Assembly (NCBI GenBank): GCA_002696035.1 | Contig: NZQV01000017.1 | Span: forward strand, 62,001-126,000 | From: Balneola sp. | Lineage (GTDB): Bacteria; Bacteroidota; Rhodothermia; Balneolales; Balneolaceae | Length of the DNA stretch: 64,000 nucleotides | Direction: 5' to 3' | Shown: positions 9,226 through 51,961 of the stretch, piece by piece | How the letters are laid out: each line of letters starts with the position of its first letter | Position numbering within the stretch: the first letter of the stretch is position 1 | Notes under the pieces: model-generated | Told to the model about the DNA's origin: nothing | The model's input: only the letters and a program-made list of their open reading frames with translations | Database searches by the model: none | Position numbers and translations under genes: made by a program

Positions 9226-9264
9226 AAAAAGCCCATGCAAATCAATGATCTACATGGGCTTTAC
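9226..9264 (-). terminator. original terminator of the tRNA-Phe gene, left behind at the island edge
   Basis: A perfect 10-bp stem (AAAGCCCATG with CATGGGCTTT) is followed, on the minus strand, by a T run. It sits just beyond the 3' half-copy of tRNA-Phe, where the terminator of the tRNA stood before insertion. It can also end transcription from the CIA30 gene. Confidence 0.7.
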
Positions 9265-9319
9265 TTGAGTGTGGGACCGGGCGGATTTGAACCGCCGACA
9301 CACGGATTTTCAGTCCGTT
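9257..9319. repeat. left attachment-site repeat with a 3' fragment of tRNA-Phe
   Basis: This 63-bp sequence is identical to 51874-51936. It contains the last 48 bases of tRNA-Phe (9272-9319): T arm, variable loop and the 3' side of the anticodon arm, reading on the minus strand, plus 15 bases downstream. The identity stops exactly after the bases GTCCGTT. Confidence 0.95.
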
Positions 9320-9482: not shown

Positions 9483-10688
9483 ATGCCAAAGATCAAACTT
9501 ACTGATTCATTTATAAGGAATTTTTCATATCCAGGTAAGGAACATGAGTTTTATGATGAGATCCGTCCGGGATTCATTTTAAGGGTTACCAAAACAGGCC
9601 ATAAATCTTTTTCCTACCGATATAGGTTCGGTGATAAAGTACAGCGATTTACAATTGGAGCATTTCCCGCTATCAGTTTGTCAAAAGCAAGATCAATCGC
9701 TGATGATTTACACTTAAAAGTTAAGCAAGGTATAGACCCTCAAGATGAGAAACTAAATGCCAGAACAGAGCCCAAGCAATTAACTATCTCCGAATTGAGT
9801 AAAGAATATGAAAACAGGCATTTTCCGAAACTAAAAAAAACAACTCAAGACGATTACAGGAGAAGAATCAACAACGTAATTGTTCCTGCATTGGGAGATA
9901 TTTATGTCAAAGATCTTGATAGAATTACCATCATTGATTTCTTAGAGGAGATTGCGTTTGAACATGGAAAAGACGGAGCCCCCATTCAGTCCAATAGAGT
10001 TCGGGCTGTATTATCAAGCATGTATTCATTTGGGGTGGACAAAGCAATATGTGACTTCAACCCCGTTCAAACAGTAAAACCCATTGGCGAAGAAAAGTCG
10101 AGAAACCGAGTCTATTCAAAAAAAGAAATTAAGCTGTTATGGGAGCATTTTTGCTTCGAAACTGAACCTTTTAGCAGTGTTTTTAAAATGCTGCTTATTA
10201 CTGGGCAACGATTGAGGGAAACCAGAAGAATGAAGTGGAAGCATATAAAGAATGATATCTGGATAATACCTGAAGAAGAGACGAAAGCGAGCAGAACCCA
10301 CTTTGTTCCGTTAAGTACATTGGCTTTAAAAATTCTAGAAGAGAGAAAAGAAATTTCGGGTGATTCTGATTTTGTATTTGAATCACCAGTCAATCCTGGG
10401 GAGCCTATTTACTGGCTTCAACACGCAGCTGCAAGAGTTAGAAGGGCATCAAAGATCGACGACTTTAGAATTCATGATCTTCGAAGAACAGTCGCAAGTT
10501 TTATGGCTGAACAGGGAGTTTCACGTACAGTGTTAGGAAAAATATTGAACCACAAGGGGTTGTCAGGTGATAGTAGTGTTACTGCAATTTATGACCGACA
10601 TGAATATATGGATGAGAAAAAGGATGCTTTGGATAGTTGGGCCAATCAATTGGAACGTATCTTTACAGAGGAGAAAGAAAAAAATTAA
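9483..10688 (+). CDS. int: tyrosine-type integrase of the island
   Basis: The 401-residue protein has an N-terminal DUF4102-type arm-binding domain (FYDEIRPGFILRVTKTG), a central SAM-like core-binding domain, and a C-terminal catalytic domain. The catalytic residues are visible: Arg243 (TGQRLRE), His331 and Arg334 (HDLRR), His357 and the nucleophile Tyr370 (IYDRHEYM). This is the P4/prophage integrase layout typical of tRNA-targeting elements. It starts 163 bases inside the left attachment repeat and reads inward. It would catalyse insertion and excision at tRNA-Phe. Confidence 0.95.
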   Translation: MPKIKLTDSFIRNFSYPGKEHEFYDEIRPGFILRVTKTGHKSFSYRYRFGDKVQRFTIGAFPAISLSKARSIADDLHLKVKQGIDPQDEKLNARTEPKQLTISELSKEYENRHFPKLKKTTQDDYRRRINNVIVPALGDIYVKDLDRITIIDFLEEIAFEHGKDGAPIQSNRVRAVLSSMYSFGVDKAICDFNPVQTVKPIGEEKSRNRVYSKKEIKLLWEHFCFETEPFSSVFKMLLITGQRLRETRRMKWKHIKNDIWIIPEEETKASRTHFVPLSTLALKILEERKEISGDSDFVFESPVNPGEPIYWLQHAAARVRRASKIDDFRIHDLRRTVASFMAEQGVSRTVLGKILNHKGLSGDSSVTAIYDRHEYMDEKKDALDSWANQLERIFTEEKEKN

Positions 10689-12469: not shown

Positions 12470-12682
12470 GTGAAAAATCTCAAAATTATACGAGTAAAGG
12501 AGTTGTGCCGGCTCATTTCAGTCAGCCCGACTACATTGTGGCGCATGGAGAAACGCGGGGAGCTTCCACCTCGCATTAAAATATCAACCCGAGCAGTGGG
12601 TTGGCGTGAAAGTGATATCGAGGAATGGCTTGAATCTCGTTCTGAACCCCTAAATCAGGAGGCTGATCATGAAACGAGTTAA
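12470..12682 (+). CDS. AlpA-type helix-turn-helix regulator / excisionase
   Basis: The 70-residue protein has the AlpA/MerR-like winged helix: RVKELCRLISVSPTTLWRMEKRGELPPRI followed by WRESDIEEWL. AlpA proteins activate integrase or act as recombination directionality factors in P4-like elements. A GTG start at 12470 is preceded by CAGGAG about 6 bases upstream, one of the clearest ribosome binding sites in the island. It overlaps the next gene by 14 bases. Confidence 0.88.
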   Translation: MKNLKIIRVKELCRLISVSPTTLWRMEKRGELPPRIKISTRAVGWRESDIEEWLESRSEPLNQEADHETS

Positions 12683-13190
12683 TAAAATCCGAGTTCGGGC
12701 AATGTCTGACACTTCTATTATTCATCCATCAATCACGCCAGACACACTGCTTGAATTTACAGATCTAAACCACAGTTTTTTGCAGTACTACTGCATTCAT
12801 GGTGAAGAAGTAGATTGGTATGGCCGGTTAGGAAACCTTGGTACTTTTATCTCGACTCCGTTAACGCTTTTATGCCCACCGGAGCTAACCGAAATATTAG
12901 GTATCAACAACTTCGATACCGTTTCACTTTCATTGGCTGCTATTCCGCCTTTGAAGGTAATAAATCTGCAATCTATTAAGCCCGCAAGCTTAGATAGCAA
13001 TAAGCATCTCGAATTCACAACTGGTTTAAAAGCGTCTAAAGGAGATTCCTTTATCTACAAAGGACACTTAGTAACTATTACTTCTGGCCAGCCCGCCACT
13101 GGATTCATAACCCCAAGCACTCATATCGAGGACGACATCATCGAACCTGAACCTACAAATAAACAATTATCAACGGAGATTACATCATGA
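12669..13190 (+). CDS. hypothetical protein in the replication operon
   Basis: This protein has up to 173 residues; an internal ATG at 12702 (MSDTSII) may be the true start and would give 162. No recognised domain. Its stop TGA overlaps the ATG of the ATPase gene (ATGA at 13187-13190), so the two are translationally coupled. That overlap shows TGA used as a stop only 2.5 kb before genes that contain in-frame TGA. Placement suggests a replication accessory role, by inference only. Confidence 0.7.
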   Translation: MKRVNKIRVRAMSDTSIIHPSITPDTLLEFTDLNHSFLQYYCIHGEEVDWYGRLGNLGTFISTPLTLLCPPELTEILGINNFDTVSLSLAAIPPLKVINLQSIKPASLDSNKHLEFTTGLKASKGDSFIYKGHLVTITSGQPATGFITPSTHIEDDIIEPEPTNKQLSTEITS

Positions 13191-15433
13191 ATAGAACAGA
13201 AATATATCACAAATACTTAGACAACGTAACCCAAACAAAAGACCAAGGCCTGCAAGGCGACTCTCCATGGGGAGATGGTAAAATCACCATAACCAAATCT
13301 GGGGACTTCTCCTGTAGTGCAACAGGGAAATCCGGTACTGTTATTGATTTTATAGGTTCATTTAACCCTACCATGACTAATGCCGGACTTAATAAAGTCC
13401 TGGCATCTGAACTTGTCTGGACAAAACCTCATCTGGAATCAATTCTTAAGTCCGTGGATTCCTTTAAAAATGATGCTCCCCGGCTTAAAGTAGCCAGCGA
13501 AAAGCTAGAACTTCCAAAAAGCTTCCTTAAACAGGTTCCTGGATTTATGAGTACGAGAGAGTTTCAATATAGCATGATTGACCACTACTCCCCATCCGGC
13601 GTACCGTTGACGGTATCCAATTTTTCTCTGGATAAGCCTTTAGCAAGAACTATTGGCGTGCCTCGAATGCCTGAAGAGATATCAGAAACGACTTTTTTTG
13701 TCGAAAATTCACTTGTGGCAAAGTGGATCACAAAACAACTCAAGCTGACGGCACTGCCTTGGCCAAAAGAAGATGATCTGCAAAATTACCATTACGATCA
13801 GCTTTTAAAAGACAAGAAAGTCATCATCTTATATGAAGATTTTAGCTATACCTACAGCGATAGTTTCTTACCATCCCTTGAGGCAATTCAGGATTCAGTA
13901 AAAAGCTTTTCAGCGCTAAAGTATCGGGACATAACCCAAGGGACTTCCTTTGTGAAATGGATTAAAGAGCCTGAAAACCAGGCGAAGTTATTTGAGAAAG
14001 CTCAGGATTGTGCAAATAAACCGTTAATCCCACAGGATGTGTACCAGAAGAGTATTTATTCGAGCACCAAAGAGGAGTTAACATTTGCTCAGGGATATTC
14101 AAGAGGTTTCTTTTTCTATGGCATGAACGATGGCAACATCGTACAATCTCATCCACTTGATATCCACTCAGTAGATTCAGTAGAAAAGAAGTTTGATCTA
14201 TCGGTAGTTGCCCCTGCTGAAGAAAGCCGGCCTCGGTCTGTGAAGTTATCTCCTTCAACCATTCTTAACATCACTGAATCCGTTAGCAATGTATCACCGG
14301 TTACAACATATGCAACACTACGCAACTTCATATCGGAGCGTATTTATTTCGGTGAGAATGAGCAGGATTTAGAAATGGTCACACTCTGGATCCTAGGCAC
14401 CTATGTGTATCGGCTTTTTAATGCCTATCCTTATCTTCACATACAAGGACCTGCCGGAAGCGGGAAAACAACGCTTTTGGAGATTATTGAAAGTACATCA
14501 TTCAATGGGGCGTTAGCTTCACGAATTACAGGCGCTCGTATGATGAAAGAAATCAACGACACCAAATGTACGCTTGGTCTCGATGAGTTTGAAAAATCCA
14601 GCGGGAGCCAATCTGCTGCCAACACGCAAATATTAAATGCAGGATATAAAAAGAGTGGTCGTTACCTAAAAATGATGGGGGAAGGCGAAAACGATAAATA
14701 CCTCGACTTGTATAGTCCAAAGGCATACGCAAGTATTGGTGCTATTAAAACCGATTCGCTGACTTCAAGGACATTACCCATTTGGCAGCAAAAGGCACCT
14801 TCATCTCTTGCCTTAAAACCATGGGATCCTGCAGATCGAACCACAGAGCAACAAATTACATCTATTGTTGAAGGTGGTTATGCAATTGGCTTATACCATC
14901 ATCATTACCTGCAATACCTGATGGCAACCCTGCCAAATAAGATTCTCCTACCAAGTGGGCTATCCCTGGAAGGGCGTCAACGAGAACTGGCGCTCCCTAT
15001 CCTAGTGCTTGCCAACTTTATCGATCCAAGTGGAAGCCTGGAAGCCACTATCAAGGACCTATTGCAGGCTAAACTAGCCGCTACTCATCAGGATACCATT
15101 CGAAGAATCAAGATGTTTACAAATACATTGCGTGAGTGGTCAGCAGACCTTGATGACTTCCCCCATGCTACCGATGAAGAAATGGTGTGGATTTCAAACA
15201 AAGTCTGGGGTGGCACGGCAATTCTATCGGAGTTTAATGGCAAAAACAACTCTCTGTACAATTGGATTAAAACCTTGCACAGTGATGTCGCAATCAAATC
15301 TGTGTGGATACCAAAATTAGATAAGTCCATTAGCAGCATTGGAATTCCGCTCGACCTAAATATCAACAATAAGGAAATTAGGTCGTGGCTTAAGTTAAAT
15401 TCCTCCTCCGAAGACGATAAACCAACAACCTAA
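13187..15433 (+). CDS. replication ATPase (SF3/AAA-like) with degenerate primase zinc-finger domain
   Basis: The 748-residue protein has a Walker A loop G421PAGSGKT428, a Walker B LGLDEFEK with Asp466-Glu467, and a downstream sensor/arginine region (IGAIKTDSLTSRTLP). This is the arrangement of phage/plasmid replicative helicase ATPases. The N-terminal 60 residues resemble a DnaG-type CHC2 finger (GDSPWGDGKITI ... FSCSATGKSGTVIDFI), but the expected Cys/His ligands are mostly replaced. It is translationally coupled to the upstream gene and ends before a strong terminator. It probably unwinds the origin or fork for element replication. Confidence 0.82.
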   Translation: MNRTEIYHKYLDNVTQTKDQGLQGDSPWGDGKITITKSGDFSCSATGKSGTVIDFIGSFNPTMTNAGLNKVLASELVWTKPHLESILKSVDSFKNDAPRLKVASEKLELPKSFLKQVPGFMSTREFQYSMIDHYSPSGVPLTVSNFSLDKPLARTIGVPRMPEEISETTFFVENSLVAKWITKQLKLTALPWPKEDDLQNYHYDQLLKDKKVIILYEDFSYTYSDSFLPSLEAIQDSVKSFSALKYRDITQGTSFVKWIKEPENQAKLFEKAQDCANKPLIPQDVYQKSIYSSTKEELTFAQGYSRGFFFYGMNDGNIVQSHPLDIHSVDSVEKKFDLSVVAPAEESRPRSVKLSPSTILNITESVSNVSPVTTYATLRNFISERIYFGENEQDLEMVTLWILGTYVYRLFNAYPYLHIQGPAGSGKTTLLEIIESTSFNGALASRITGARMMKEINDTKCTLGLDEFEKSSGSQSAANTQILNAGYKKSGRYLKMMGEGENDKYLDLYSPKAYASIGAIKTDSLTSRTLPIWQQKAPSSLALKPWDPADRTTEQQITSIVEGGYAIGLYHHHYLQYLMATLPNKILLPSGLSLEGRQRELALPILVLANFIDPSGSLEATIKDLLQAKLAATHQDTIRRIKMFTNTLREWSADLDDFPHATDEEMVWISNKVWGGTAILSEFNGKNNSLYNWIKTLHSDVAIKSVWIPKLDKSISSIGIPLDLNINNKEIRSWLKLNSSSEDDKPTT

Positions 15434-15515: not shown

Positions 15516-15544
15516 TTGACAAATCCCACGTCTATGAATAGAAT
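15516..15544 (+). promoter_or_regulatory. sigma-70-like promoter of the TGA-containing replication unit
   Basis: TTGACA (15516-15521) and TAGAAT (15539-15544) are separated by exactly 17 bases. It lies just after the terminator and about 108 bases before the first ATG of the unit. The spacing and the hexamers are near ideal for a housekeeping promoter. The long leader contains a GGAG (15597-15600) and a short GTG-started frame with TGA as its third codon (15609-15668). Confidence 0.6.
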
Positions 15545-15651: not shown

Positions 15652-16245
15652 ATGAGCAATCATATTAAAATAAACGACATCCATTCTGGCCCTAGAGGCT
15701 GAACCAAAAAGCTCATGGAAGTCCATGGAGAGCAAAAAGTAAGAGAGTACTGGAAGGAACACGGAAACAGAAAAACAGCGGAGCATTTCGGAGTTTCGCC
15801 TTGAACAATCACTCACTGTAGAAAAAAATACATGTGGACTCGGCCCCTTGAAAAGGCCCCAAATATCCTCATAGCAGTAGCAAGAGGAAATGCACATCCA
15901 AAGGAATACCCTTATTTAGAATTCAAGGTAACTAATTCGAAAATGTTGGTACCTCAAGCTGAAGATATCCAACGTCACGCCTACTACTTAATGAAAAAAG
16001 GTACATTCATTGGCTGGTGCCTGCTGAATAAAGGATATACCTATTGTGATAATATCTACCGATGGTTTGAAGGCGATCCTAAAATGGATTGGGTTGAGAC
16101 GTACGATGACTTGATCCAGGCGATGAAAGAGGATAAATCCGGATATCTCCAGCCCCGGCATTTCGACAAGGTAGAGCAGGTATATAAATCCTATATAGGT
16201 AAAGACCCCAATTTCGATTTTGAAGACGGGGTAACTCCCTCGTAA
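15652..16245 (+). CDS. HTH-containing protein, full frame interrupted by two in-frame TGA codons
   Basis: One frame runs from ATG 15652 to TAA 16243-16245, 198 codons, with only two stops inside, both TGA (15700 = codon 17; 15802 = codon 51). Read as Trp they give a continuous protein. Residues about 33-62 look like a homeodomain-type helix-turn-helix (KTAEHFGVSP-W-TITHCRKK), where an aromatic residue before TI is common. Five further Trp in the gene use TGG. There are no TAA/TAG and no frameshift. The 3' part shows normal protein sequence (GTFIGWCLLNKGYTYC). It is the first gene of a unit with the primase-helicase gene 136 bases downstream. Alternative: a pseudogene, disfavoured because all lesions are TGA. 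Confidence 0.7.
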
Positions 16246-16273
16246 GGTTTAATAATAACCTTACTCTATAATG

Positions 16274-16300
16274 AGCTAGCCTTCCTTTGGGAGGCTGGTT
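16274..16300 (+). other. 12-bp hairpin between the two TGA-containing genes
   Basis: The arms 16274-16285 and 16289-16300 pair over 12 positions (three G-T pairs) with a 3-base loop, followed by CTTTAT. It could be an attenuator or weak terminator between the HTH gene and the primase-helicase gene. No long T run follows, so the terminator call is not firm. Confidence 0.4.
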
Positions 16301-16381
16301 CTTTATCGATTGGAAGGAAACCCAACCAATAGCAGACAAACTACTTTTACTACAATAATTTAAATTAACATACAGATACAC

Positions 16382-18865
16382 ATGAAATACGAATTTTCAG
16401 CAGACTTACAACCATACCCTACCAAACCAAGCAGTACCCAGGCAGCTCGTATAAGCCAGAGCCTTAAACCTGTGTATGTAGAAAGCATCGAAGAGTTTAT
16501 GGAGGATGTGCAGCAGGGTCACACCTGAAGTCCATCTGACTTTAATGGGACACGCTCCAATGCTAATTGGACCAGTCAGGTGATTCTCGCATTAGATTTC
16601 GATGCAGGGATAACTCCTGATGAAGCTATCGAACGCATACAAGCTTACGACATTACCCCAAATGCATGATATCCAACCTTCAGTGATAGCCCTGAAAAGA
16701 GGAAGTTTCGTCTCATCTTCTTTCTGGACACCCTTATTACCGATATTAATACCCGTAACTACCTGATGGACGGGTTATTTGAAATGTATCCCGAAGCCGA
16801 TAAGGCCTGTAAGAACCCAGCCCATCTCTTTTATGGAACCGATAAACAGGGGGAGGTTTTAAATCCAAAAGCACTTCCACTGGATCTTTTCTTTTCTGTT
16901 TTAGAGTCCGATAAGATTAAAAATGGAGGAAGACTACGGAAAATAAACCCTCAGGCACCCGGAGTGGCGTTTTTACGAAAAGATGGTTTTTCACGTTCCT
17001 CCTATAGTAATACTATAGGGGCAACGTCAAAAGCCACAAACGAGCAAAAGCTAGAATACTACGAAAAGCTAAATCGGAACAAGAATAGTAAAGAGGTTGA
17101 CTGGGATAAATTGCAGTCCCGAGTTCGCCTGTTCTTTGATTTTATGAACGGCGAGGAGCGCCTCTCTTATGCCCAGTTACTGGGACTTGCTCAGAATATG
17201 GTTTGGATGAAGGGAGGCCAGAAGATATATGAGGAGCGCTTGCAAGAGTTCAACGACAACCACACGGGCATTAATCCCTATCCGCGAGACGGACGTTTTG
17301 ATCTGATGCGTAAAATCAACAAATACAATAAAGACGTAGACAAAGCTTATTTCCCTCAACGCCTGGAAACCTTTTCTCCGTACAACAGCGACCATATATA
17401 CCGGAATTTAATCACAGCCGAGCGGGATCTAATTGATAGTATTGAGCTAACCGAGCCCATAACCCGCATACCCCTTGAAAAGGCCGAGCAGCTGCTAGAA
17501 TACAAGTTTACCCAAGCCATGGACAGCCTAAGCGATGATATCTTCATTTTCCAGCTTCCTACTGGTATCGGTAAGACCTGGCGGATAAAAGACCTGGATG
17601 AAGTTACCTTGGCTTTCCCTACCAATAACCTGAAACGCCAGGTATTCGATGAACGAGAAGATGCTCCTTCTGCAATCATGACCCCGGAATTCCCGGTATT
17701 TACCGACTACAGGCTAAACGAAAAGATCGACCGGCTTTTTACAGCTGGTTTTGTAAAGCAGGTTCACCGATTGCTCTGAGATTTCAAAAATGGTGTGGGC
17801 TGTAATCCAGACGATCAAAAACTGGCCCAAGCATATATTGATAAAAACAAAACAGTCCAAAACTCGATAAAGAGCATTTTTACTACTCACAGCCGGGCTA
17901 TCCACACGCCATTCGGGCATGACACGATCATCTTTGATGAAGACCCTCTCCCCCTGCTGTTAGATGTGGATACGTTAAAGATTGCTGATCTAAAGAAGAT
18001 CAAAAAGAATAAACACAGAGCGCTATTATTTGGCGATGACAGGCCCAGGTTTATCAACCTCCAGCGCTATCTGGAAAGCGTTGATGAGGGGGAAATCCTT
18101 ACCTTGCCAGATGAGTTTAAAGTAGATATCACCAATGAATGGCTGCTATTTATGCAGACCGAAGGTATCGACAGCAACATAATGAAGTTTTTAGCCTCTG
18201 ACTATTTTTATAAAGATGAATCAGACCGGGATCTTATCCATTTTATCAACCAAGAATCCCTCCCTCAGGATAAAAAGATCATCATAATGAGCGCTACAAT
18301 TCCCGTAAAGATTTACAAAGAGCTTTACGGAGAGCGAGTGCAGGTCATTGACATTACCGATGTGGCTCACAAGGGTACCATCACCCAGCACACTAGGTAC
18401 TCCTATTCCAGAAATTCATTGGCTAAGCATCTGGATAACGTCAACGAAAAGCTGGAGAAGCGCCCGACGATAACTTTTAAGAGCTTCAACGAGCAGATAG
18501 ATAATGCCAGCCCGGATATGTGATTTGGGAACTGCTCTGGCTATAACCAGTACACGGGAAGGTCTATTAATGTATTGGGCACGCCTCATAAGCATAATGC
18601 CCAATATCTGCTAATAGGCAAAGTATTAGGAGTCAATGTGGACAAGTTTAACCGGGAGTTCAGGATGCAAACGGTTGAATGAGGTGGATTCCGGTTTAGC
18701 TTCAATACCTTCGACAACGAGCGTCTTCAACACATTCAGCTGAGCTTAATAGAGAGTGAGCTTACCCAAGCATCGGGCCGGGCTCGTGCATTACGTGAAG
18801 ATGTAGAAGTAGATATTTACTCCAACCTGCCCCTGCGAATTACTCAGACCTATGTGGAAGACTAG
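16382..18865 (+). CDS. archaeo-eukaryotic-type primase fused to SF2 helicase, with five in-frame TGA codons
   Basis: One frame of 827 codons runs from ATG 16382 to TAG 18863-18865, with five internal stops, all TGA, at codons 49, 96, 466, 714 and 767 (bases 16526, 16667, 17777, 18521, 18680). The primase domain shows LALDFDAG (Asp72, Asp74) and RKFRLIFFLD with the conserved HLFYGT region. The helicase domain shows Walker A G395IGKT, box DEDP at 519-522, SAT at 637-639 and motif VI QASGRAR at 796-802. Trp fits each TGA context (NA-W-YPTFS, DM-W-FGNCSG, VE-W-GGFRF). Five other Trp codons are TGG. If TGA stopped translation, no product would hold both catalytic aspartates and the full helicase. 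It probably primes and opens the element's replication. Confidence 0.8.
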
Positions 18866-19011
18866 CATGCAGAAAATTAACCTGCGATCACCACGGAAGG
18901 AATCTTTATTTTGAATCTTTAGGATTAAGGTTCCATATCCTACCCCCACCATTCTACCCAGCCTCCCAGCCTTAGAGTTAATTTTTCCATGGGGTTCTTA
19001 GCGTTTTTGCA

Positions 19012-19050
19012 GGGAAAATCGGATTCTGAAATATTTTTTCCGATTTTTTA
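19012..19050 (+). terminator. Rho-independent terminator after the primase-helicase gene
   Basis: Stem AAAATCGGA (19015-19023) pairs with TCCGATTTT (19039-19047) and is followed by more T. It lies about 150 bases after the TAG. The rest of 18866-19103 shows no gene; I looked for and did not find a tRNA. Confidence 0.7.
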
Positions 19051-19103
19051 AAATCTGCCTTATGGGATTCTACATAGCCAGTAGATTATGTACAATCAAC
19101 ATA

Positions 19104-19551: not shown

Positions 19552-19995
19552 TTACATAAGCCCCTCCTGTCTGAGAGAGGTAAACCCGGATCGGTACAAA
19601 ATCACATGGTCTTCTATAGGGATTCCGAGAAGTTTCCCAGCCTCTACAGCTCGTTTAGTGAGTTGTACGTCAGCGGTCGAACTTTTTGGGTTATTGCTGG
19701 GGTGGTTGTGACTCAATATCAGTGAATTTGCCTTTCCAAGCAGAGCAACCTGGAATATTTGTGCAGTATCAACTATAGTAGCAGTTGATCCGCCAGAGGA
19801 TATTAAACTATGACCTAACACATGTTTCATATTATCCAACAGAACGACTACAAATTCCTCTTTGAGTTCAAGGTGATCGTCATTCCAGATTGATCTTAGA
19901 TAAGCAGCAGCTTCTTCCGGGCTTGTAATAGTTGGCAGGCTTTCGACCGGTTGAACGGACCGGTAGGTAAGCGAGACTTCAGCGATTTGTGGCAT
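19552..19995 (-). CDS. RadC-like JAB/MPN-domain protein
   Basis: The 147-residue protein is the JAB domain alone, without the N-terminal helix-hairpin-helix part of full RadC. The metal motif is intact: SHNHPS followed eight residues later by Asp in TADVQLTKR. Proteins of this size are common on plasmids, phages and genomic islands, where they are thought to counter defences or help DNA processing; the reaction is not settled. It probably belongs to the island's replication backbone. Confidence 0.9.
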   Translation of the reverse strand: MPQIAEVSLTYRSVQPVESLPTITSPEEAAAYLRSIWNDDHLELKEEFVVVLLDNMKHVLGHSLISSGGSTATIVDTAQIFQVALLGKANSLILSHNHPSNNPKSSTADVQLTKRAVEAGKLLGIPIEDHVILYRSGFTSLRQEGLM

Positions 19996-21475: not shown

Positions 21476-24454
21476 ATGATGAATTACGGCACAACTTGGC
21501 ATAGATGGGAGCCTCATATTCATACTCCTGAAACACTGTTAAATGATCAATTTAATAGTGAAGATCCTTGGGAAGATTATCTCACTATAATTGAGAAGTC
21601 TGAACCTCAAATTCGAGCTATTGGAATAACAGATTACTACCTCACCGATAATTATGAAAAAATATTATTAGCAAAATCAGAGGGTAGGTTGCCTAATATT
21701 GATCTTATTTTTCCAAATATCGAATTAAGACTGGACATAGCTACTCAAAAAGGGAAATGGGTTAACATTCATTTATTAGTAGATCCGATTGACCCAGAAC
21801 ATATCCCTCAAGTCAAGAGGTTACTAGCTCGACTCAATTTTAGAGCACATAATGACACTTTTGCGTGTACTCCTGAAGATCTAATAAGACTAGGGAAAGC
21901 ATCTGACAAAGATATAGAAGATGACCAATCAGCTTTAAGATATGGAGCGACTCAGTTCAAAGTTGGTTTTGATCAATTGAGAGAGGAGTTTGATAAATCA
22001 GGTTGGGCAAAAGAAAATATAATAGTAGCAATAGCAGGAAGTAAAACGGATGGTACATCTGGTGTAAGAGATGCTTCTGACACAACTCTCCGTGAAGAGA
22101 TGGAAAGTTTTGCAAAAATAATATTTGCCAGTAGTGCAGCTCAGCGTGAATTTTGGCTGGGTTTAAGAAGTTTGAATGAACAAGAAATAATCTCAAGATA
22201 TGGAGGTCTAAAACCTTGTCTTCATGGTAGTGATGGCCATGATTTTATAAATACTGGGGAACCAGATGAAAATCGTTTTTCATGGATTAAAGGTGGTATT
22301 GAATTTGATAGTATTAAACAAGCTTGCATTGATCCTTACGGCCGGGCATTTGTAGGAATCAGTCCACCTGAGACAGGAATACCGTCACAATCAATTGATA
22401 GTATCCAAATTAACGGTGCTTCTTGGGCAAAAACACCAAAAATTGGTTTAAATCCTGGTCTTGTATCGATAATAGGTGCTCGAGGTTCAGGTAAAACTGC
22501 CCTTGCTGACATGATAGCTATGGCCTGTGATTCTATACATGAGGCAACAGAATTAGAAAATAGTAGATTAACCACATCCTTTATCAAGCGAGCGAAAGAC
22601 CTACTTGATGGAATTAATGTCAGTATAAACTGGAGATCAGGTGATTCTGAAAACCGGGCGCTCGATGGTTCGACAACTCCTGATGTTAAAAATCCACGAG
22701 TAAGATATTTATCTCAGCAATTTGTTGAAGATCTTTGTTCGTCTGATGGTTTAACTGATGAACTACTCAGTGAAATAGAAAGAGTCATATTTGAATCACA
22801 TTCCTTAACTGAACAAGATGGCGCTATCGATTTTTCTGAATTATTAGAATTGCGGTCATCCAGAATACGACAGGCAAGAGAGCGAGAAGAAGAAGCAATA
22901 GTTCAATTATCGGATCGAATAGGATCAGAACTAGAAAAAGACAGGGAAATTCCCAAATTGAAAGAACAAATTGCCCAAAAGAAAAAAAAGATCAAAGCTT
23001 ATGAAGAAGATCGAAAAAAACTGGTCACGAAAGGAAGTGAGAAACGTGTAGAACGATTAACTGAATTAACATCAGCTGCGGAAAAAGTTAGGGGGTTTAT
23101 AAAGTATTTCAAAAATCAAGAACAGGCATTACTTGGTCTTCAAGATGAAGTCGAGGATCTTCGAAATAATAAGGCCCCAGAAATGCTTCGCCAATCTAAA
23201 GAAAGGCATTCAGCCAGTCGTATGAATCCACAAGACTGGGACACTTTTTTACTGGATTATACTGGTGATGTAAATCAAAAATTAAAAACTCTTTTGAAAA
23301 GCTCGAAAGAATCTATGAATGGTTGGAGGGGCACTAAACCAAAACAACCGGATTCTCCAGAAACTCCATTGATAAATGAAAGTGAAGATCTAGAAAAACA
23401 AACTCTTGCTTTGCTTGAAGCCGAGATTAATCGATTAGAGAAATTAGTTAGTGCTGACAAAGTCACTCAAAGAAGATACTCTGCACTTTCTAAGAGTATA
23501 ATTTCTGAGTCTAGTATACTTGAAAACCTTGAAGAAAAGTTAAAGGTAGCAAAAGGTGCAAAAAAGCGTATTAAAAACCTTCAAGTAGATAGAGAAGAGG
23601 CTTATAAACGAATATTTGATCTAATAGAATCCGAAGAGAATGTCCTTAAAGAATTGTATAAGCCATTGATGGAAAAGATCAATTCAAAAAAAGGAACTAT
23701 CACAAAACTTTCATTTACTGTATCGCGGAATGTAAATGTAGACAAATGGTCAGAATTTGCAGAGAATGAGCTTGTTGATCTCCGTCGCCAAGGCCCTTTT
23801 AAAGGAAAAGGAAATCTTAAAACCATAGTAAATAATACTCTTAAAGAGGCATGGACAAGTGGAGATTCAGATTCAGTAATTGATGCTATGTCAAGTTTTC
23901 GAGAGAAATATCTAAAAAAATTACTGGAACACTCAAATGTTCCTAAAGGTGATCAAAATGATTATAGAGCATGGCTGAAACGTTTTGCAAAATGGTTGTA
24001 TTCCACTGACCACATAAAATTAAATTATAGTGTTGACTATGATGGAGTTGATATCCAAAAATTATCTCCTGGAACGCGAGGAATTGTACTTCTCCTACTT
24101 TATTTAGCCCTTGATGACGCCGATGATCGGCCATTAATAATCGATCAGCCAGAAGAAAACTTAGATCCAAAATCAGTCTTTGATGAGTTAGTTGAATTAT
24201 TTATTGATGCCAAATCAAAACGACAGGTAATTATGGTCACACATAATGCTAACCTCGTAGTAAATACTGATTCGGATCAAGTTATTATTGCAAACGCAGA
24301 ACCAAATGTACGTGGGAAACTTCCGGATATTAGTTACAAATCAGGAGGTTTAGAAAATAAGGAAATTCGAAAAGCTGTGTGTGATATTCTTGAAGGAGGA
24401 GAACATGCTTTTAAAGAAAGAGCAAGAAGATTGAGAATTAATATGTCTAAATAA
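21476..24454 (+). CDS. TrlF-family PHP-ATPase, defence protein
   Basis: The 992-residue protein starts with a PHP-like domain (WHRWEPHIHT, His-x-His). It continues with an SMC/ABC-type ATPase: Walker A IIGARGSGKTAL near residue 340, long coiled coils near residues 450-750, signature LSPGTRG, Walker B PLIIDQPEENLD and H-loop VTHNANLVV near the end. This is the layout of TrlF, found with tRNA-targeting and anti-phage loci. It is probably a nuclease controlled by ATP. ATG 21476 is used; 21479 also possible. It fills an integron-type cassette almost completely. Confidence 0.85.
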   Translation: MMNYGTTWHRWEPHIHTPETLLNDQFNSEDPWEDYLTIIEKSEPQIRAIGITDYYLTDNYEKILLAKSEGRLPNIDLIFPNIELRLDIATQKGKWVNIHLLVDPIDPEHIPQVKRLLARLNFRAHNDTFACTPEDLIRLGKASDKDIEDDQSALRYGATQFKVGFDQLREEFDKSGWAKENIIVAIAGSKTDGTSGVRDASDTTLREEMESFAKIIFASSAAQREFWLGLRSLNEQEIISRYGGLKPCLHGSDGHDFINTGEPDENRFSWIKGGIEFDSIKQACIDPYGRAFVGISPPETGIPSQSIDSIQINGASWAKTPKIGLNPGLVSIIGARGSGKTALADMIAMACDSIHEATELENSRLTTSFIKRAKDLLDGINVSINWRSGDSENRALDGSTTPDVKNPRVRYLSQQFVEDLCSSDGLTDELLSEIERVIFESHSLTEQDGAIDFSELLELRSSRIRQAREREEEAIVQLSDRIGSELEKDREIPKLKEQIAQKKKKIKAYEEDRKKLVTKGSEKRVERLTELTSAAEKVRGFIKYFKNQEQALLGLQDEVEDLRNNKAPEMLRQSKERHSASRMNPQDWDTFLLDYTGDVNQKLKTLLKSSKESMNGWRGTKPKQPDSPETPLINESEDLEKQTLALLEAEINRLEKLVSADKVTQRRYSALSKSIISESSILENLEEKLKVAKGAKKRIKNLQVDREEAYKRIFDLIESEENVLKELYKPLMEKINSKKGTITKLSFTVSRNVNVDKWSEFAENELVDLRRQGPFKGKGNLKTIVNNTLKEAWTSGDSDSVIDAMSSFREKYLKKLLEHSNVPKGDQNDYRAWLKRFAKWLYSTDHIKLNYSVDYDGVDIQKLSPGTRGIVLLLLYLALDDADDRPLIIDQPEENLDPKSVFDELVELFIDAKSKRQVIMVTHNANLVVNTDSDQVIIANAEPNVRGKLPDISYKSGGLENKEIRKAVCDILEGGEHAFKERARRLRINMSK

Positions 24455-24473
24455 TAACAAATTTTAAATTTGC

Positions 24474-24563
24474 ACCTAACAAAACGTTTCAAGTGGACTA
24501 TATTAAGATCCGGAAATATAATTAACTAATCAGGTTAGCCACTTAAATGCTAGACCATTAGTT
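24474..24563 (+). repeat. attC site closing the TrlF cassette
   Basis: R'' is ACCTAAC (24474-24480, matches RYYYAAC), followed by AAAACGTTTCAAGTGG; the other arm is CCACTTAAATGCTAGACC then ATTAGTT (24557-24563). The inner arms AAGTGG and CCACTT pair. This is the R''-L''-L'-R' order of integron attC sites and is close in sequence to the aadA-type and Vibrio repeats. R' starts with A instead of G, so its recombination activity may be reduced. Confidence 0.72.
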
Positions 24564-24581
24564 TTAAAAACAAGAAATAAA

Positions 24582-25367
24582 ATGCCTGAATTTGAGACAT
24601 ACAAATTCAAAGATTGGGGGTCATTAAAAGAGCACTTAAATTATTTTAGAAGTGACTGGATTTTTAGGGGGCAGGCTAATGCTACTTGGGAATTGGAAAC
24701 TTCTATAGAGAGAACTGATTTTAAGTGGACTAACCAAAAAGCAGAATTAGTTTTAATCTCCGAATTTCAGAGGGGTGTACATAACTTTGTCGATGACAAA
24801 AGGCTACCTCAGAATCTTCTTGGGTGGTTAGCTTTTATGCAACATCATGGTACACCAACGAGGATGCTAGACTTTACTACTTCACCCTACGTAGCAGCTT
24901 ATTTTGCTTTATCAGAAATGGAAGATAATTCTGCAATTTGGGCTATAAATAATTCTTGGTTAAATAAAGAGACAAAAAAACGTATCACTCAAAAAGAATA
25001 CTATACTTCCTACGGACAAGTGGATTTTAATAACGATCAGATTTTCGAGGAAACAATTCTAAAAAACGAATACAACTTTGTCACAAAAGTTTCTCCTCAT
25101 AAAAGAAATCAAAGAATTTATTATCAACAAGGACTTCACGTTGTACCCGGGAATACTAGTATATCTTTCATGGAAAACTTAAAATCTATGGGGAATCTCG
25201 AAGGAAATGTGGAAAAGATAAAATTAACACCAGAATTACGATTTGAGGCTCTACAAGATTTATTAAACATGAATATTAATAGAGCTACATTATTTCCAGG
25301 TATTGATGGTTTTGCTATTTCTGTAAAAGAAAAAATCCTAATGTTAAGGGAAATGTTTACTACTTAA
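24582..25367 (+). CDS. FRG-domain protein
   Basis: The 261-residue protein carries the FRG domain: WIFRGQANATWELETSIER at the N-terminus and HHGTPTRMLDFTTSPYVAAYFA in the middle. The family takes its name from the Phe-Arg-Gly motif (residues about 26-28) and occurs widely in phage-defence islands and toxin-like loci; its reaction is unknown. It starts just after the attC of the TrlF cassette, and a possible R'' (AACTAAC, 25375-25381), complementary to the first bases of this cassette, follows. The rest of its attC appears deleted. Confidence 0.85.
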   Translation: MPEFETYKFKDWGSLKEHLNYFRSDWIFRGQANATWELETSIERTDFKWTNQKAELVLISEFQRGVHNFVDDKRLPQNLLGWLAFMQHHGTPTRMLDFTTSPYVAAYFALSEMEDNSAIWAINNSWLNKETKKRITQKEYYTSYGQVDFNNDQIFEETILKNEYNFVTKVSPHKRNQRIYYQQGLHVVPGNTSISFMENLKSMGNLEGNVEKIKLTPELRFEALQDLLNMNINRATLFPGIDGFAISVKEKILMLREMFTT

Positions 25368-25538: not shown

Positions 25539-26306
25539 ATGAACCTACAACCATTCTGCTTTCCTGTAACGCTAAGAACTGTAGCAGTCGACAACGCCAA
25601 ATCACCTCTAATCGACATCGATGACCAAGAGTCCTTCTTACCTAATGGTTATAAGGCTATTGTACGAGAAGATACAAACGAAGTCATTTCCATCGTAAAA
25701 GACTCCTACAAGATCGTGAAGAATAACGATCTCATTGATCAGCTCTTACGATCCCTTGCCACTTCAGGGTATCAGTTCAGGATTGATCCGTCTCACAGTT
25801 TTGTCGAGAATAATCGGATGAGATTAATGATCACCTTTCCTGAACTTCTTTTCCGGGATGGCGAATCTGATATCGCCCTGTCTGCTTTCATACATAACAG
25901 CTACGATCAATCTGAAGGCGTCCGCTTCTATTTTGGCGCTATCCGAAAGATATGTTCCAATGGTATGGTGTTCGGGCAGATTCTGTCCAAATACTATTCC
26001 AAGCATACCTCCGGCTTCTCTTTTGAAGATCTTGGAGAAAAGTTGGCTGATGCCAGGGATTATTTTCCCGTGATCCAAGAGCGCATCAATCGCCTTGAGA
26101 CTTTGCGGGTGGATGAGCAACTCGTGGAAAACGTATCCAATAAAATCTCCAAACGCTTGGCTGAACAAGTCATCGAGCAGGAGGAAATTGGGCGAATTAC
26201 CCAATGGGAAATGCTCAATAGGCTAACCAATTATGTGAGCCATGATCTGGACCAACGGCACCGTGCCCGTTATCAGGACAACATCAGCAAAGTGTTTGCC
26301 CTGTAA
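25539..26306 (+). CDS. DUF932 phage/plasmid-like protein
   Basis: The 255-residue protein has the DUF932 pattern: VVKDSYKIVKNNDLI-like block near residue 60, RMRLMITFPE, and the conserved GVRFYFGAIRKICSNGMVFG. It is found on plasmids, phages and conjugative islands next to recombination genes; its role is unknown. It is at the head of a run with a small basic protein, a YqaJ exonuclease and a likely ssDNA-binding protein, consistent with element DNA metabolism. Confidence 0.85.
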   Translation: MNLQPFCFPVTLRTVAVDNAKSPLIDIDDQESFLPNGYKAIVREDTNEVISIVKDSYKIVKNNDLIDQLLRSLATSGYQFRIDPSHSFVENNRMRLMITFPELLFRDGESDIALSAFIHNSYDQSEGVRFYFGAIRKICSNGMVFGQILSKYYSKHTSGFSFEDLGEKLADARDYFPVIQERINRLETLRVDEQLVENVSNKISKRLAEQVIEQEEIGRITQWEMLNRLTNYVSHDLDQRHRARYQDNISKVFAL

Positions 26307-26375
26307 CGGAGATCGTATGTCGTTAGGAACATTAGTCGTCAAGATCATCATCATAATCTGCAAGGGAGGAAAACC

Positions 26376-26513
26376 ATGAGCGTCAAATCTGTTCTACTCA
26401 AAAGCCTCCTAGAGGGGTTCAAACATGGGCTTCGGCTCTGGCTCTGTAAAGACCGCCAGGAAGACCCTCCTCCTACACATCAAAACGAATCAAACCACAA
26501 GCCTGCCGGATAA
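26376..26513 (+). CDS. small hypothetical protein (45 residues)
   Basis: The ATG at 26376 is preceded by GGGAGGA six bases upstream, the best ribosome binding site in the area, and the frame gives 45 residues ending CLPAG-like Pro-Ala-Gly before TAA 26511. A 20-codon frame (26317-26379) overlaps its start by ATGA and could couple translation. The product has a basic first half (GFKHGLRLWLCKDR) and a polar tail. The stop lies inside the terminator stem. Function unknown. Confidence 0.55.
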   Translation: MSVKSVLLKSLLEGFKHGLRLWLCKDRQEDPPPTHQNESNHKPAG

Positions 26514-26531
26514 CCCGGTGGGCTTTTTTAT
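26500..26531 (+). terminator. Rho-independent terminator
   Basis: AAGCCTGCCGG and CCCGGTGGGCTT form an ~11-bp stem with a 3-4 base loop, followed by six T. It ends the DUF932/small-protein unit before the YqaJ gene. Confidence 0.85.
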
Positions 26532-26559
26532 TTCTACCAATCCTTAAACAAAATCACTT

Positions 26560-27489
26560 ATGAAACTATTAGATAACATTCCAAAAAAATCTTGGATTGA
26601 GGCTCGAGTAAATTATTTGGGCGGAAGTGAGATATCTGCCGCCCTTGGCAAGTCTCCCTACCAAACACCCTTTCAACTCTGGCTTCTGAAAACCGGCCGT
26701 AGAGAGCCTCAAGGTTCCACGCCTATCACAGAGATGGGTCATATACTGGAGCCTGTCTGCGCGGAAAAATTCACCGAAATGACCGGGCTGAAAGTCCGCA
26801 ATATCTCGGAGCCCTACGAACACGAAGAGTATACATTCTTACGTGGAAACATAGATAGGCAAATTGTAAGCTCGGAGAAGCATCCAGGGCCGGGAGTTTT
26901 GGAGATCAAAACAACCACGTCTCATAGAATGCGAAACGAGCCGAACGCCTATCCGCTGAGTTGGGAGTATCAGATTCAACATTATCTTATGCTTACATCT
27001 TATCAATATGCGTATTTGATCGTTATGGAAAGGGACACTGGCTACTTCCACGACCCGATCTACATCGAGCGCAATGAAGAACTGATCGCCATTAACACTC
27101 AAAAAGTAATAGAATGGTGGGAAGATCATGTGATTGCCGATGTGCCACCGGATGCCATGACAGACGAAGATCTGCTCATACTCTATCCGGATGCAAAAGA
27201 GGGAGAAACGGTCGAAGCGAATCCAAAGCTGTACGCATACTTTCAGCAGCTTCAGAAAGTAAGAGACCGCCTTGACGAGTACAAAACACACAAGGAATCC
27301 CTGGAGCACCTGCTCAAAGAAGAGTTAGGAAATGCGGAGCATATGACACTGGCTGGCCGGAGGCTCTTCAGCTGGAAGAACTCTACCCAACGCCGGTTCA
27401 ATACCACAGCCTTTCGGAAAGAGTACCCGCAGCTCTACAAGCAGTTTCTAAAGGAAACCACCACCCGACGTTTCACCATTAACACTTAA
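26560..27489 (+). CDS. YqaJ/lambda-type exonuclease
   Basis: The 309-residue protein has the YqaJ viral recombinase pattern: YLGGSEISAALGKSPY at residues about 16-31, GNIDRQIV for the active-site Asp, and VLEIKTTT for the Glu-x-Lys pair, all of the PD-(D/E)xK fold. Such enzymes degrade one strand from DNA ends and feed a single-strand annealing protein. It is followed 11 bases later by a gene I take as its ssDNA partner. It serves recombination or replication of the element. Confidence 0.9.
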   Translation: MKLLDNIPKKSWIEARVNYLGGSEISAALGKSPYQTPFQLWLLKTGRREPQGSTPITEMGHILEPVCAEKFTEMTGLKVRNISEPYEHEEYTFLRGNIDRQIVSSEKHPGPGVLEIKTTTSHRMRNEPNAYPLSWEYQIQHYLMLTSYQYAYLIVMERDTGYFHDPIYIERNEELIAINTQKVIEWWEDHVIADVPPDAMTDEDLLILYPDAKEGETVEANPKLYAYFQQLQKVRDRLDEYKTHKESLEHLLKEELGNAEHMTLAGRRLFSWKNSTQRRFNTTAFRKEYPQLYKQFLKETTTRRFTINT

Positions 27490-27500
27490 ACCCAATAATC

Positions 27501-28010
27501 ATGGCACTAATCATAAAAGAAGAAAAAATCGAATACCCCTTGGCTCCCGACGGCCTATTAGATGCCCTCCTCGTGGATGTGGTAGATCTAGGCGAGCTGG
27601 ACACTCCTTGGGGACCAAAACATAAATTGTCTTTGGTCTTTGAGTTGGAGGACACCGACTCCGAGGGAAAGCACTTCATCGTTACCAAGCGATATACGTG
27701 GTCGCTCAACGAGAAATCCAATTTACGCAAGGACCTCGAAAGATGGCGCGGTTCTAAGTTCAGCAAAGATGAGCTCGAAAGTGGCGTAGATATGGAAGCT
27801 TTCATTGGGCTGAATGCCACGCTGTTTATCAGCCATAATGAGTCCGAGCAGCATGAAAAAATATTCGCCAACATCGAAACCATTCTTCCTCGGAAGAAAA
27901 ACAACAAGGTGGTCTTCTACGACCTCAAGCCATCCGGCGATTATACCCGTGTAGTTGAAAGGGAAAATTATAAGAAACCTGAAGAGTATGCAGAGATGGT
28001 AAACAGCTAA
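27501..28010 (+). CDS. probable ssDNA-binding / phage replication accessory protein
   Basis: The 169-residue acidic protein has alternating beta-rich segments (HKLSLVFELED, HFIVTKRYTWSLNEKSNLRKDLERW) and LNATLFISHNE. This resembles the phage replication-accessory proteins that stand beside YqaJ or RecT genes and that have OB-like folds. No named family is certain. It shares a promoter with the upstream exonuclease. The ssDNA role is inferred from context. Confidence 0.65.
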   Translation: MALIIKEEKIEYPLAPDGLLDALLVDVVDLGELDTPWGPKHKLSLVFELEDTDSEGKHFIVTKRYTWSLNEKSNLRKDLERWRGSKFSKDELESGVDMEAFIGLNATLFISHNESEQHEKIFANIETILPRKKNNKVVFYDLKPSGDYTRVVERENYKKPEEYAEMVNS

Positions 28011-36589: not shown

Positions 36590-39481
36590 CTAAACCTCAC
36601 TCGCACTCTTAACCATGCCATAATCAACACCAAGAGCCTCAAAGTGGGCTTCTCCAAACTGTATTTTATTAAGCTCGCTAATTCTCAGCTGATCTTTTGA
36701 AGTTGAGCCTTTGGTTTCTTTCACCATATATACTTTATCCTCCCCACCGTATTCATCATGCTTTACTATAGCCCAATCGGGATTATAGGGCCCAATTGGA
36801 GTATCAATATTGAACTGTTTTGGCAGTTTCACAAATAGCCGGATGTCTTTTCTAATATCTAATTGTTCAGCAAACCTTTTTTCTACTTCTGAATCGTACT
36901 CTACAAAGTCATAAACAGAATTCTTGACCGGAACTAAACGGTTCAAGTATGAAACCAGCTCTTCCTCTTCAAATCGTCTCATTTCATAAATCTGTCCTTC
37001 CACCTTTTCATACTTGATCCCGCCAATCATCAATGACCGTAAGGTGTCATTAATGGCTGCTGAAATTTCATCCATGAATCGCTGTGGGTTATTTACAAAC
37101 TCATCCAGTCGGTCGGATTGTTTAAGAATTTCGACAATAGTTGCCCTTGTGAGCTCGGTCTCTTTTTGGATGTACGCAACGATATCCGGCAATTTGTAGC
37201 TCATTTGTACTTCCTCAACCCTGTGACCAACCAGTTGAGCTTCTACTCCTTTTCGGGTTATTTCCTGCGTAGTCCGATAAGTATGTAGCTTTATTTTACC
37301 AATAGTCGGTATTTTAGAAATAGCTTTAACGCTTTTCTCAATAAGCTCTTTGGTATCGTATTCTACACGATAGCGGGTTTTCTTATTTATTTTATCCCAC
37401 AAAGTTTTGAAATCTTCATCGAGATAAACCTGTTTGTTAAGCTTGAGTTTGCGGCGTTTTTTCTTGTTCTCAATTCTTCGGCTGAAGTCATATTTCCTGA
37501 TAGCATCAATAACTTCGGCTTCCAATGGCTCATATTTTTCATCCAGTTCAAGGCTAAAATCTTCAAACTCTGGTTTGAATGAGGATAGAATGGCACCTTC
37601 AGAATTCAGGAATCCTTTATTGACCAAGTGATTCCAAATCTCATTGGATTCATCGGCTCCTAATTGTTCTCCATCTATCGTTATCCCAGTGAATTCAGAT
37701 TTTGGAACCATGCCAAATTTAATACCAATGTCTTCATACTCCGTTTGCAGAGCAGCTGCAAAATCATCGTAGCTCTCATTGGCCACTATGGTTACTCGGT
37801 TAATACGTTCGTCAAAAACTCGCTCACCCTCCTGATTTACCGGAATGCGTAATCCACGACCAATTTCTTGTCGCTTTTTAATTTCTGACCCGGATTCATT
37901 CAGGGTGCAAATTTGAAATACATTCGGATTATCCCATCCTTCCCTCAACGCTGAGTGACTAAAAATGAATCGTAAAGGCTCATCCTTTGATAGCAACCGT
38001 TCCTTGTCTTTCATGATGAGGTTATAGGCATCCTCATCGTCTTTTACATCTCGTCCTTCCCAGGAATCTTTTACTCGATTCTGCTTATCAACGGCAAAAT
38101 ATCCATCATGGACTTTTGAGAGTGGGTGGGGAATCACATCTTTATAACGCGGAAGTTGCACCAGTTTTTCATATTCCTGTACAAACCATCGGGCAATTTT
38201 TCCCGGTTTTGCATTTCCAAGCTCATCATACTCCCGATAGTTGGCCACTTTATCAATGAAGAACAGGGACAGCACTTTGATGTCCCGGTCTTTTAACTCA
38301 ATTTCTTTTTCCAGGTGCTCTTCAATTGTATTTCTTATTTGAGCCTGCATCACTTCATCAGTGAGCCCACCTTGAGAATCTCCAATACCTAAGCGTTGAC
38401 CATTTGAGAACCGAATAAACTCCCGACCGGGTGTAACATTAATTTCTGTAACGATATAGCCATTTTGATAAGCTGTTCTTTCATTGGATTTTTCATAGAG
38501 ATCATCTCCATGAGTAACCGTTACATTCGATTCTTTTGGACCAGAATCAGTGTCCTTATGGAAGGTCAAATAAGCTTTTAGCTTGTTATTCTTTGATTTC
38601 AAATCGCGCACTGATATGAACGCTGCATGGTAGCTATCCTCAGCAACAACGGAGGCTACTTCAATCTTCTTAACCAACCCTCGTTCGAAAGCATCTACCG
38701 GATCGAGCTTATAAATAAGGTTGTAGGTATTGCGATGCGTGGCTGAATAACGAAGAGTGCAAAGTGGGTTCAGATTCGAAATTGCATTTCTTGAAGCTTC
38801 CTGTTCCATATTCTGCGGTTCATCCATGATCACAATGGGATTGGTTGAACTCACGAATTCAATAGGTGCACGACCACTGAGCTGATCCATCTCTTTGAAC
38901 ATCACATTGGTGTCTTTATTAAAAGAGTCAATGTTGATGATCATTATTTCTAAATGATTGCTACTTGCAAACTGCCGCAAGTCGCTGATCCTGGAAGAGT
39001 CATAAATAAAATAGTGAGGATTTGGGTTGTTATAAATAGCATTGAAATGCTCTTTGGTAATTTCCAGATTTTTGTGAACTCCTTCCCGAATTGCCACACT
39101 GGGTACGACGATAATGAACTTTTTGAACCCATACTTTTGATTTAGTTCAAAAATGGAGCGTAAATAGACATAGGTTTTACCCGTGCCTGTCTCCATTTCG
39201 GTGGTGAAGTTCATTCCGTTTATATACTCACCACCTTGAAGCTCGGGAACACGTTCAATCTGGTTGCGTTCCTGAACAGCACGTACATTCTCAAGGATTT
39301 GAGGTTTTGAGAGGGATAATTGATTCCCAATTCCCAATTCATTTTGCTCGATGAAGCCAACTTGATCGTTTAGGCTGATTTCATACTCGCCCTGACCCAA
39401 TGGTTGTCCATCAAAAATATCTACAACAGACTCAATGGCTTCTAATTGGTAATCGAGATTTGGATCGAATTTAAGCTTCAT
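36590..39481 (-). CDS. res: type III restriction endonuclease subunit (Res)
   Basis: The 963-residue protein has an SF2 helicase core: TGTGKTYVY, VPSVAIREG, IVIMDEPQNM, LRYSATHR, and EIGRGLRIPV. The C-terminal nuclease domain is present: NPDWAIVKHDEYG ... YMVKETKG (PD...ExK). It translocates on DNA with ATP and cuts in complex with Mod. It overlaps the preceding membrane-protein gene by 11 bases. Length is normal for the family, and all motifs seem intact. Confidence 0.92.
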   Translation of the reverse strand: MKLKFDPNLDYQLEAIESVVDIFDGQPLGQGEYEISLNDQVGFIEQNELGIGNQLSLSKPQILENVRAVQERNQIERVPELQGGEYINGMNFTTEMETGTGKTYVYLRSIFELNQKYGFKKFIIVVPSVAIREGVHKNLEITKEHFNAIYNNPNPHYFIYDSSRISDLRQFASSNHLEIMIINIDSFNKDTNVMFKEMDQLSGRAPIEFVSSTNPIVIMDEPQNMEQEASRNAISNLNPLCTLRYSATHRNTYNLIYKLDPVDAFERGLVKKIEVASVVAEDSYHAAFISVRDLKSKNNKLKAYLTFHKDTDSGPKESNVTVTHGDDLYEKSNERTAYQNGYIVTEINVTPGREFIRFSNGQRLGIGDSQGGLTDEVMQAQIRNTIEEHLEKEIELKDRDIKVLSLFFIDKVANYREYDELGNAKPGKIARWFVQEYEKLVQLPRYKDVIPHPLSKVHDGYFAVDKQNRVKDSWEGRDVKDDEDAYNLIMKDKERLLSKDEPLRFIFSHSALREGWDNPNVFQICTLNESGSEIKKRQEIGRGLRIPVNQEGERVFDERINRVTIVANESYDDFAAALQTEYEDIGIKFGMVPKSEFTGITIDGEQLGADESNEIWNHLVNKGFLNSEGAILSSFKPEFEDFSLELDEKYEPLEAEVIDAIRKYDFSRRIENKKKRRKLKLNKQVYLDEDFKTLWDKINKKTRYRVEYDTKELIEKSVKAISKIPTIGKIKLHTYRTTQEITRKGVEAQLVGHRVEEVQMSYKLPDIVAYIQKETELTRATIVEILKQSDRLDEFVNNPQRFMDEISAAINDTLRSLMIGGIKYEKVEGQIYEMRRFEEEELVSYLNRLVPVKNSVYDFVEYDSEVEKRFAEQLDIRKDIRLFVKLPKQFNIDTPIGPYNPDWAIVKHDEYGGEDKVYMVKETKGSTSKDQLRISELNKIQFGEAHFEALGVDYGMVKSASEV

Positions 39482-40118: not shown

Positions 40119-40119
40119 T

Positions 40120-42027: not shown

Positions 42028-42201
42028 GCTATAGGTATATTCTAATTGTTTTGACTTAATCTAACAAAACCCTATTCCTTATGAAATAAGAGTATTTGTT
42101 TCAATGAATTGAGGAGTGTAAATCAATCCTTTAGTAATTTTTTAATGTTTGAGAAGAATATTGCATCTTAGCGTGAACTGATTGTTTTAAACATAGACAT
42201 A

Positions 42202-51873: not shown

Positions 51874-51879
<6 letters not shown>
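51836..51879 (-). terminator. terminator of the restored tRNA-Phe, supplied by the island
   Basis: AAAGCCTTGA (51839-51848) pairs with TCAAGGCTTT (51870-51879); on the minus strand it is followed by T-rich sequence. Its stem differs in sequence from the displaced host terminator at 9226-9264. The island thus brought its own terminator for the tRNA. Confidence 0.75.

Positions 51880-51961
<82 letters not shown>

Follow-up and report, generated by a model that had tools for sequence, protein, structure and literature searches.

In-frame UGA codons at tryptophan sites in the replication genes of a tRNA-Phe island of Balneola and its relatives: a possible translational gate

In an island integrated at a tRNA-Phe gene of Balneola sp., two adjacent replication genes are interrupted by seven in-frame TGA codons, and the same pattern recurs, in other genera too, in the replication modules of related islands throughout the order Balneolales. 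Comparison of these sequences leaves us in very little doubt that UGA in these genes means tryptophan, and makes it probable that the codon was selected as a gate on their translation. The full explanation that we favour, with more reserve than either of these parts, is that the genes are intact, that UGA is read in them as Trp and that this forms a translational gate on the tRNA-Phe island.

The window, i.e., the whole stretch of DNA analysed, comprises 64,000 nucleotides. Gene 1, encoding an HTH-like protein that may be an initiator or a regulator, lies at 15652..16245 on the plus strand (197 codons and a TAA; two TGA and five TGG), and gene 2, encoding a primase-helicase-like replication protein, follows on the same strand at 16382..18865 (827 codons and a TAG; five TGA and five TGG). 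By inspection, the gene 2 product has a PrimPol-like N-terminus and P-loop helicase-like motifs. The AlphaFold models made in the analysis were poor, with mean pLDDT of 63 and 43. The first-pass annotation had described two open frames broken only by TGA, and this was borne out when the sequence was read again. The seven codons are located on the plus strand at codons 17 (15700..15702) and 51 (15802..15804) of gene 1 and at codons 49 (16526..16528), 96 (16667..16669), 466 (17777..17779), 714 (18521..18523) and 767 (18680..18682) of gene 2; there are no internal TAA, TAG or frameshifts, and the ten other Trp codons of the pair are TGG. The alternative frames over both genes contain dozens of TAA, TAG and TGA, so the open frames are not a product of chance. 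A promoter-like TTGACA-17-TAGAAT element (15516..15544, plus strand) precedes gene 1 and is followed by a hairpin; the sister islands look similar by eye, and the element may be functional. Between the two genes the plus strand carries TATAATGAGC and then a hairpin (16267..16300), an arrangement that recurs at the corresponding position in G043, G066a and G066b and, in G070, downstream of gene 2, which makes five islands in total. A non-coding stretch after gene 2 (18906-19063 of the window) is conserved in four islands (G000, G043, G066a, G066b).

The scan for relatives yielded seven further full-length or near-full-length copies of gene 2 with 47–76% identity, two of them in G066 and all with in-frame TGA; a scan of 128 Balneolales genomes returned the same set, in which 8 of 8 near-full-length copies carry in-frame TGA. 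Alignment of the homologues, which the first-pass annotation had proposed as a check, placed the TGAs nearly always at Trp columns, most of them TGG in homologues, in support of the local TGA-to-Trp recoding suggested there. Codons 63, 96, 275, 466 and 714 are a mixture of TGA and TGG among the homologues: at codon 96 five have TGG and one other has TGA, at codon 466 three have TGG and at codon 714 five, while codon 767 is TGA in six of eight and TGG in two. Codon 49 is TGA in all eight homologues of the order. When the TGA and TGG labels were permuted within the gene 2 homologues, an all-TGA column arose in 0.027% of the trials (P = 0.00027). Four-fold sites of gene 2 are about 31% identical overall, which is near saturation (the G066 pair, at 54%, is the one close pair); a TGA kept in all the copies is thus under selection as TGA. 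A Pseudanabaena relative (32% identity) is free of TGA and has a Trp codon at the codon-49 site; a second outgroup (G467) is also free of TGA and, by eye, has Phe there. More distant relatives (25–29% identity) without TGA are found on the viral contigs L172-L177, which are up to 140 kb in size. The few TGAs at non-Trp columns are those at codon 20 in G021, at the codon 222 column in G091 and in the HTH gene of G066v. One copy, that of G091, contains a TAG and may be decaying. No excess of synonymous conservation was detected around codon 49, and the idea of a conserved RNA signal there was dropped.

The partner gene behaves in a similar way, TGA being present in 14 of 14 copies found of the HTH gene family. 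Codon 17 of gene 1 is TGA in 4/4 close homologues, and codon 51 is TGA or TGG in those homologues that have Trp there; in the family as a whole the codon-34 column is TGA in ten copies, and the four copies with TGG34 have TGA17. TGA and TGG exchange repeatedly at the same Trp columns, in this family as in the others. No relatives of gene 1, VapE or the MEKT gene were found in viral contigs. In other islands gene 2 is adjoined by further TGA-bearing genes, of which the MEKT gene is one; in the G021 island the latter (L017:235-777, plus strand) lies near gene 2. The same island contains a divergent XRE-repressor-like frame (L016:17068-17529, minus strand) with two TGAs, one at the Trp of a 'DWL' motif. 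In G070, gene 2 is followed by a 94-aa frame (L019:3192-3473) that contains two TGAs and has a good ribosome-binding site, and no relatives of this frame were found among the examined island loci. Downstream of the MEKT gene in G021, G005 and G004 (L017:839-967, minus strand) there is a conserved convergent gene for a 43-aa basic protein, MGIKPGPK..., whose stop is TGA in all three.

The slot of gene 2 may also be filled by an unrelated replicase of the VapE/NrS-1 type. Islands of G004 and G005, which belong to the genus of the host, are without gene 2, and their VapE, primase, HTH and MEKT genes carry TGA. A second G004 island encodes, among the genes that elsewhere surround gene 2, a primase-VapE fusion of the NrS-1 type with five TGAs; in G004b, G018, G059 and other islands a different UGA-bearing replicase takes the place of gene 2 in this context. 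When 244 genomes of the class were scanned with PF05272 (VapE), ten strong matches were obtained; every one belongs to the order Balneolales and carries TGA but neither TAA nor TAG, and the whole genes contain 2-6 TGAs each in 10/10 copies. Pfam matches and solved structures support the frames, and at two of the TGA sites the known structures of NrS-1-type primases show Trp. No single VapE column is invariantly TGA, and part of the pattern is therefore explained by TGG and TGA drifting into each other where decoding is efficient. The same proposed gate would sit on two non-homologous replicase types and on the HTH partner gene across Balneolales.

In-frame TGA is confined to the replication module. 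In the aligned parts of the module genes there are 108 TGA and 150 TGG, with TGA in 42 of 42 genes, against 1 TGA and 195 TGG in host genes; the other island genes gave 21 TGA vs 363 TGG, and on inspection we take those 21 to be genuine terminators at the ends of genes, or to lie in antisense frames or in large ORFs of doubtful standing. The 18 replicases together contain 69 TGA, one TAG and no TAA in 12,791 codons, so that the related islands are nearly free of the other two stops, and 17 of the 18 require 2-7 UGAs to be read. These numbers, together with the lack of a local synonymous signal at codon 49, rule out leaky UGA read-through at a single site. The TGAs are also clustered at the gene starts: among the Trp codons of the replicases, 26 of 32 are TGA within the first 50 codons, compared with 43 of 153 beyond them (odds ratio 11, P = 3e-8), and an early TGA is present in 18/18 replicases where 20,000 within-gene permutations gave 16 at most, although early TGA columns are common by descent within the replicase families, so that the 18 genes are not independent and the P values overstate the effect. 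Since synonymous sites are saturated, each early TGA column was kept. The 5' clustering suggests that an early stop was selected for, in other words a gate, and does not point to passive recoding.

In the host itself UGA is a stop. The genome has both RF1 and RF2, with a frameshift-like site in prfB, and TGA closes 27 of 90 nearby ORFs; because RF2 is present and TGA is an ordinary terminator, host-wide use of code 4 can be ruled out, in agreement with the first-pass annotation, which had taken TGA for a normal host stop. A scan of the host genome for tRNA-Trp(UCA), suggested in that annotation as a further check, revealed no credible candidate. The same is true of the searches made more widely, which covered canonical tRNAs: of two anticodon patterns neither gave a credible tRNA(UCA), and the specific one, applied to the 128 genomes of the order, gave no Trp-type tRNA(UCA) among the 150 of 207-250 candidates that were scored; ARAGORN, run with default and relaxed settings on the first islands and also on the later ones, gave no credible tRNA(UCA), the relaxed runs producing only weak, random-looking candidates; and neither the Rfam scan of the window nor the tRNA sets of G000 and G021 contained one. 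The tRNA-Trp gene was not found in the host genome and probably falls in an assembly gap. A Hirsh-type D-arm change in the host tRNA-Trp was considered and set aside, the tRNA-Trp of G021 having a normal appearance. Reading of UGA as selenocysteine was rejected, as the homologues have Trp and no Sec tRNA was detected at the ARAGORN default threshold. Viral contigs with tRNA(UCA) do exist according to the same specific anticodon pattern, and none is linked to Balneolales; recoded prophages of the order, searched for via terminase, gave no clean TGA-only case, and we know of no UGA-recoded phage of Balneolales. A 91-nt tRNA-like sequence with a very long anticodon loop was noticed at L100:101-191 (G021:C3), and low-scoring tRNA-like fragments at L093 and L095 in the host genome are perhaps remnants of attachment sites.

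The element that carries these genes resembles, judging by its gene content, a phage satellite or a mobilisable island, with an attachment repeat in tRNA-Phe, an integrase, an AlpA regulator and a replicase. It lies between two 63-bp repeats, of which the left (9257..9319) reproduces the 3' part of tRNA-Phe exactly and the right (51874..51936) overlaps the 3' part of the tRNA-Phe gene itself (51888-51961, minus strand). On the plus strand follow a tyrosine integrase with TGG only (9483..10688; PF00589, Arm-DNA-bind_3), an AlpA-type regulator (12470..12682; PF05930), a 173-aa protein without internal TGA (12669..13190) and a 748-aa P-loop protein with 14 TGG and no TGA (13187..15433), which is the upstream neighbour of the module and is conserved in the sister islands. 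The 173-aa protein is related to the N-terminus of sister-island AAA proteins and is shortened relative to their 672-725 aa. The downstream neighbour, a RadC-like gene on the minus strand (19552..19995; PF04002), is also conserved and has TGG only, and the DUF932, YqaJ/RecE-like exonuclease and NGO0469-type phage replication-initiation genes (25539..28010, plus strand) are common to the sister islands and contain no internal TGA. PADLOC identified defence cargo at 21476-25367 and 36590-45547 of the window, comprising an AAA ATPase, an FRG protein, type III restriction-modification and SIR2-HerA. P4-like and other phage-inducible satellites and VapE islands share with it integration at a tRNA gene, an integrase, AlpA, a primase/VapE replicase and defence cargo, and to our knowledge no UGA gate has been described in them.

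Read-through of UGA as a means of control, the other option raised by the first-pass annotation, is supported as far as the reading of the codon goes, and we infer that the gate operates conditionally and controls replication. With ordinary RF2 activity, the ribosome would terminate after some 10–50 codons and the island would not be replicated, while the presence of a UGA-reading activity would allow the operon to be translated through. As up to seven UGAs are to be read in one protein, decoding would have to be efficient when it happens, and a weak leak would be insufficient. Such an activity could be supplied in trans, for which we tentatively suggest an opal-suppressor tRNA that a helper phage brings in on infection; on the entry of such a phage the island would sense the genetic code of its helper. 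Slightly more tentative is the idea of a natural genetic-code lock, in which the early UGAs silence the replication operon and the island is released by a helper phage that itself decodes UGA as Trp.

Somewhat doubtful, but in need of no special tRNA and therefore at ease with the lack of tRNA(UCA) in the 128 genomes, is a sensor of RF2 limitation, in which the host tRNA-Trp(CCA) would read UGA as a near-cognate codon when RF2 is scarce or blocked under stress or phage attack. An A after UGA is a context that favours read-through, and it follows 64 of 124 module UGAs compared with 57 of 165 TGGs (P = 0.004); RF2, moreover, seems to be autoregulated by frameshifting. This preference for A is modest and could stem from the amino acid that comes next, and the 4-7 UGAs to be read in one protein in several module genes demand a high efficiency per site, for a leak of a few percent would produce practically nothing. 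It is unlikely that the island or the host has a decoder overlooked by current tools, be it an unusual tRNA, tRNA-Trp in a modified form or editing of UGA at the RNA level: the canonical scope of the searches and the missing tRNA-Trp of this genome leave room for it, but ARAGORN on the islands, Rfam on the window, the G021 tRNA set and the anticodon pattern in the 128 genomes were all negative, and the UGA-bearing HTH and replicase genes are the only ones around the module that nearly all island types have in common. More improbable still is passive local recoding, in which efficient decoding is available always, or at least often, when these genes are expressed, and TGG and TGA are free to drift, with no role as a switch. 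The repeated exchanges at the same columns are what it predicts; the marked enrichment of TGA among the first 50 codons, the invariant codon 49, the absence of such drift from the other genes of the same islands and the role of TGA as an ordinary host stop speak against it. Decay of the genes or errors of sequencing or assembly, which the stops within reading frames might suggest and which include the pseudogene pair considered in the first-pass annotation, are refuted almost beyond doubt by the near-absence of TAA and TAG from the replicases of related islands, by the recurrence of the same columns in independent genomes and by purifying selection on the whole frames, the protein being strongly conserved at near-saturated synonymous sites. 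A recent foreign gene pair is unlikely too, given that the pattern is order-wide and old.

The translational gate that we propose has partial parallels. Phages and prophages recoded to code 4 (TGA=Trp) and code 15 have been described (PMC10746230, PMC11210395, PMC9523058); the recoding described there affects late genes, those for structure and lysis, and such phages often bring a suppressor tRNA, RF1 or TrpRS of their own (PMC10746230, PMC11210395). As in those phages, for which a role in timing translation has been proposed, with a suppressor tRNA as decoder, the stops stand in frame at sense sites in mobile DNA of a standard-code host, and TGA occupies conserved Trp sites of intact genes. 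In contrast to them, only replication-start genes of an integrated island are affected here, at the gene starts; recoding of structural and late genes or of the whole genome is not seen, and no decoder, including a tRNA(UCA) of its own, has been found. In a synthetic leak dampener, stops placed in the regulated gene give a tight OFF state and a suppressor tRNA the ON state, and the scheme works with TGA (PMC7969014); that arrangement is engineered, whereas the one described here is natural. The programmed frameshift of prfB makes an early in-frame stop a sensor of termination capacity (PMC12421855), but there a frameshift carries the ribosome past one stop codon with no insertion of Trp.

Literature searches returned no reports of such a pattern in Balneola or in satellites, and the finding is possibly a new kind of switch. 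If the gate is real, it would be the first case known to us of stop-codon recoding that controls the start of replication of a non-phage island, and one selected on unrelated replicases. The system would then offer a compact and testable model of how the meaning of a codon can act as a switch. Genes of this sort are truncated or missed by standard gene callers, so that the islands that carry them would be misannotated as having broken replicases.
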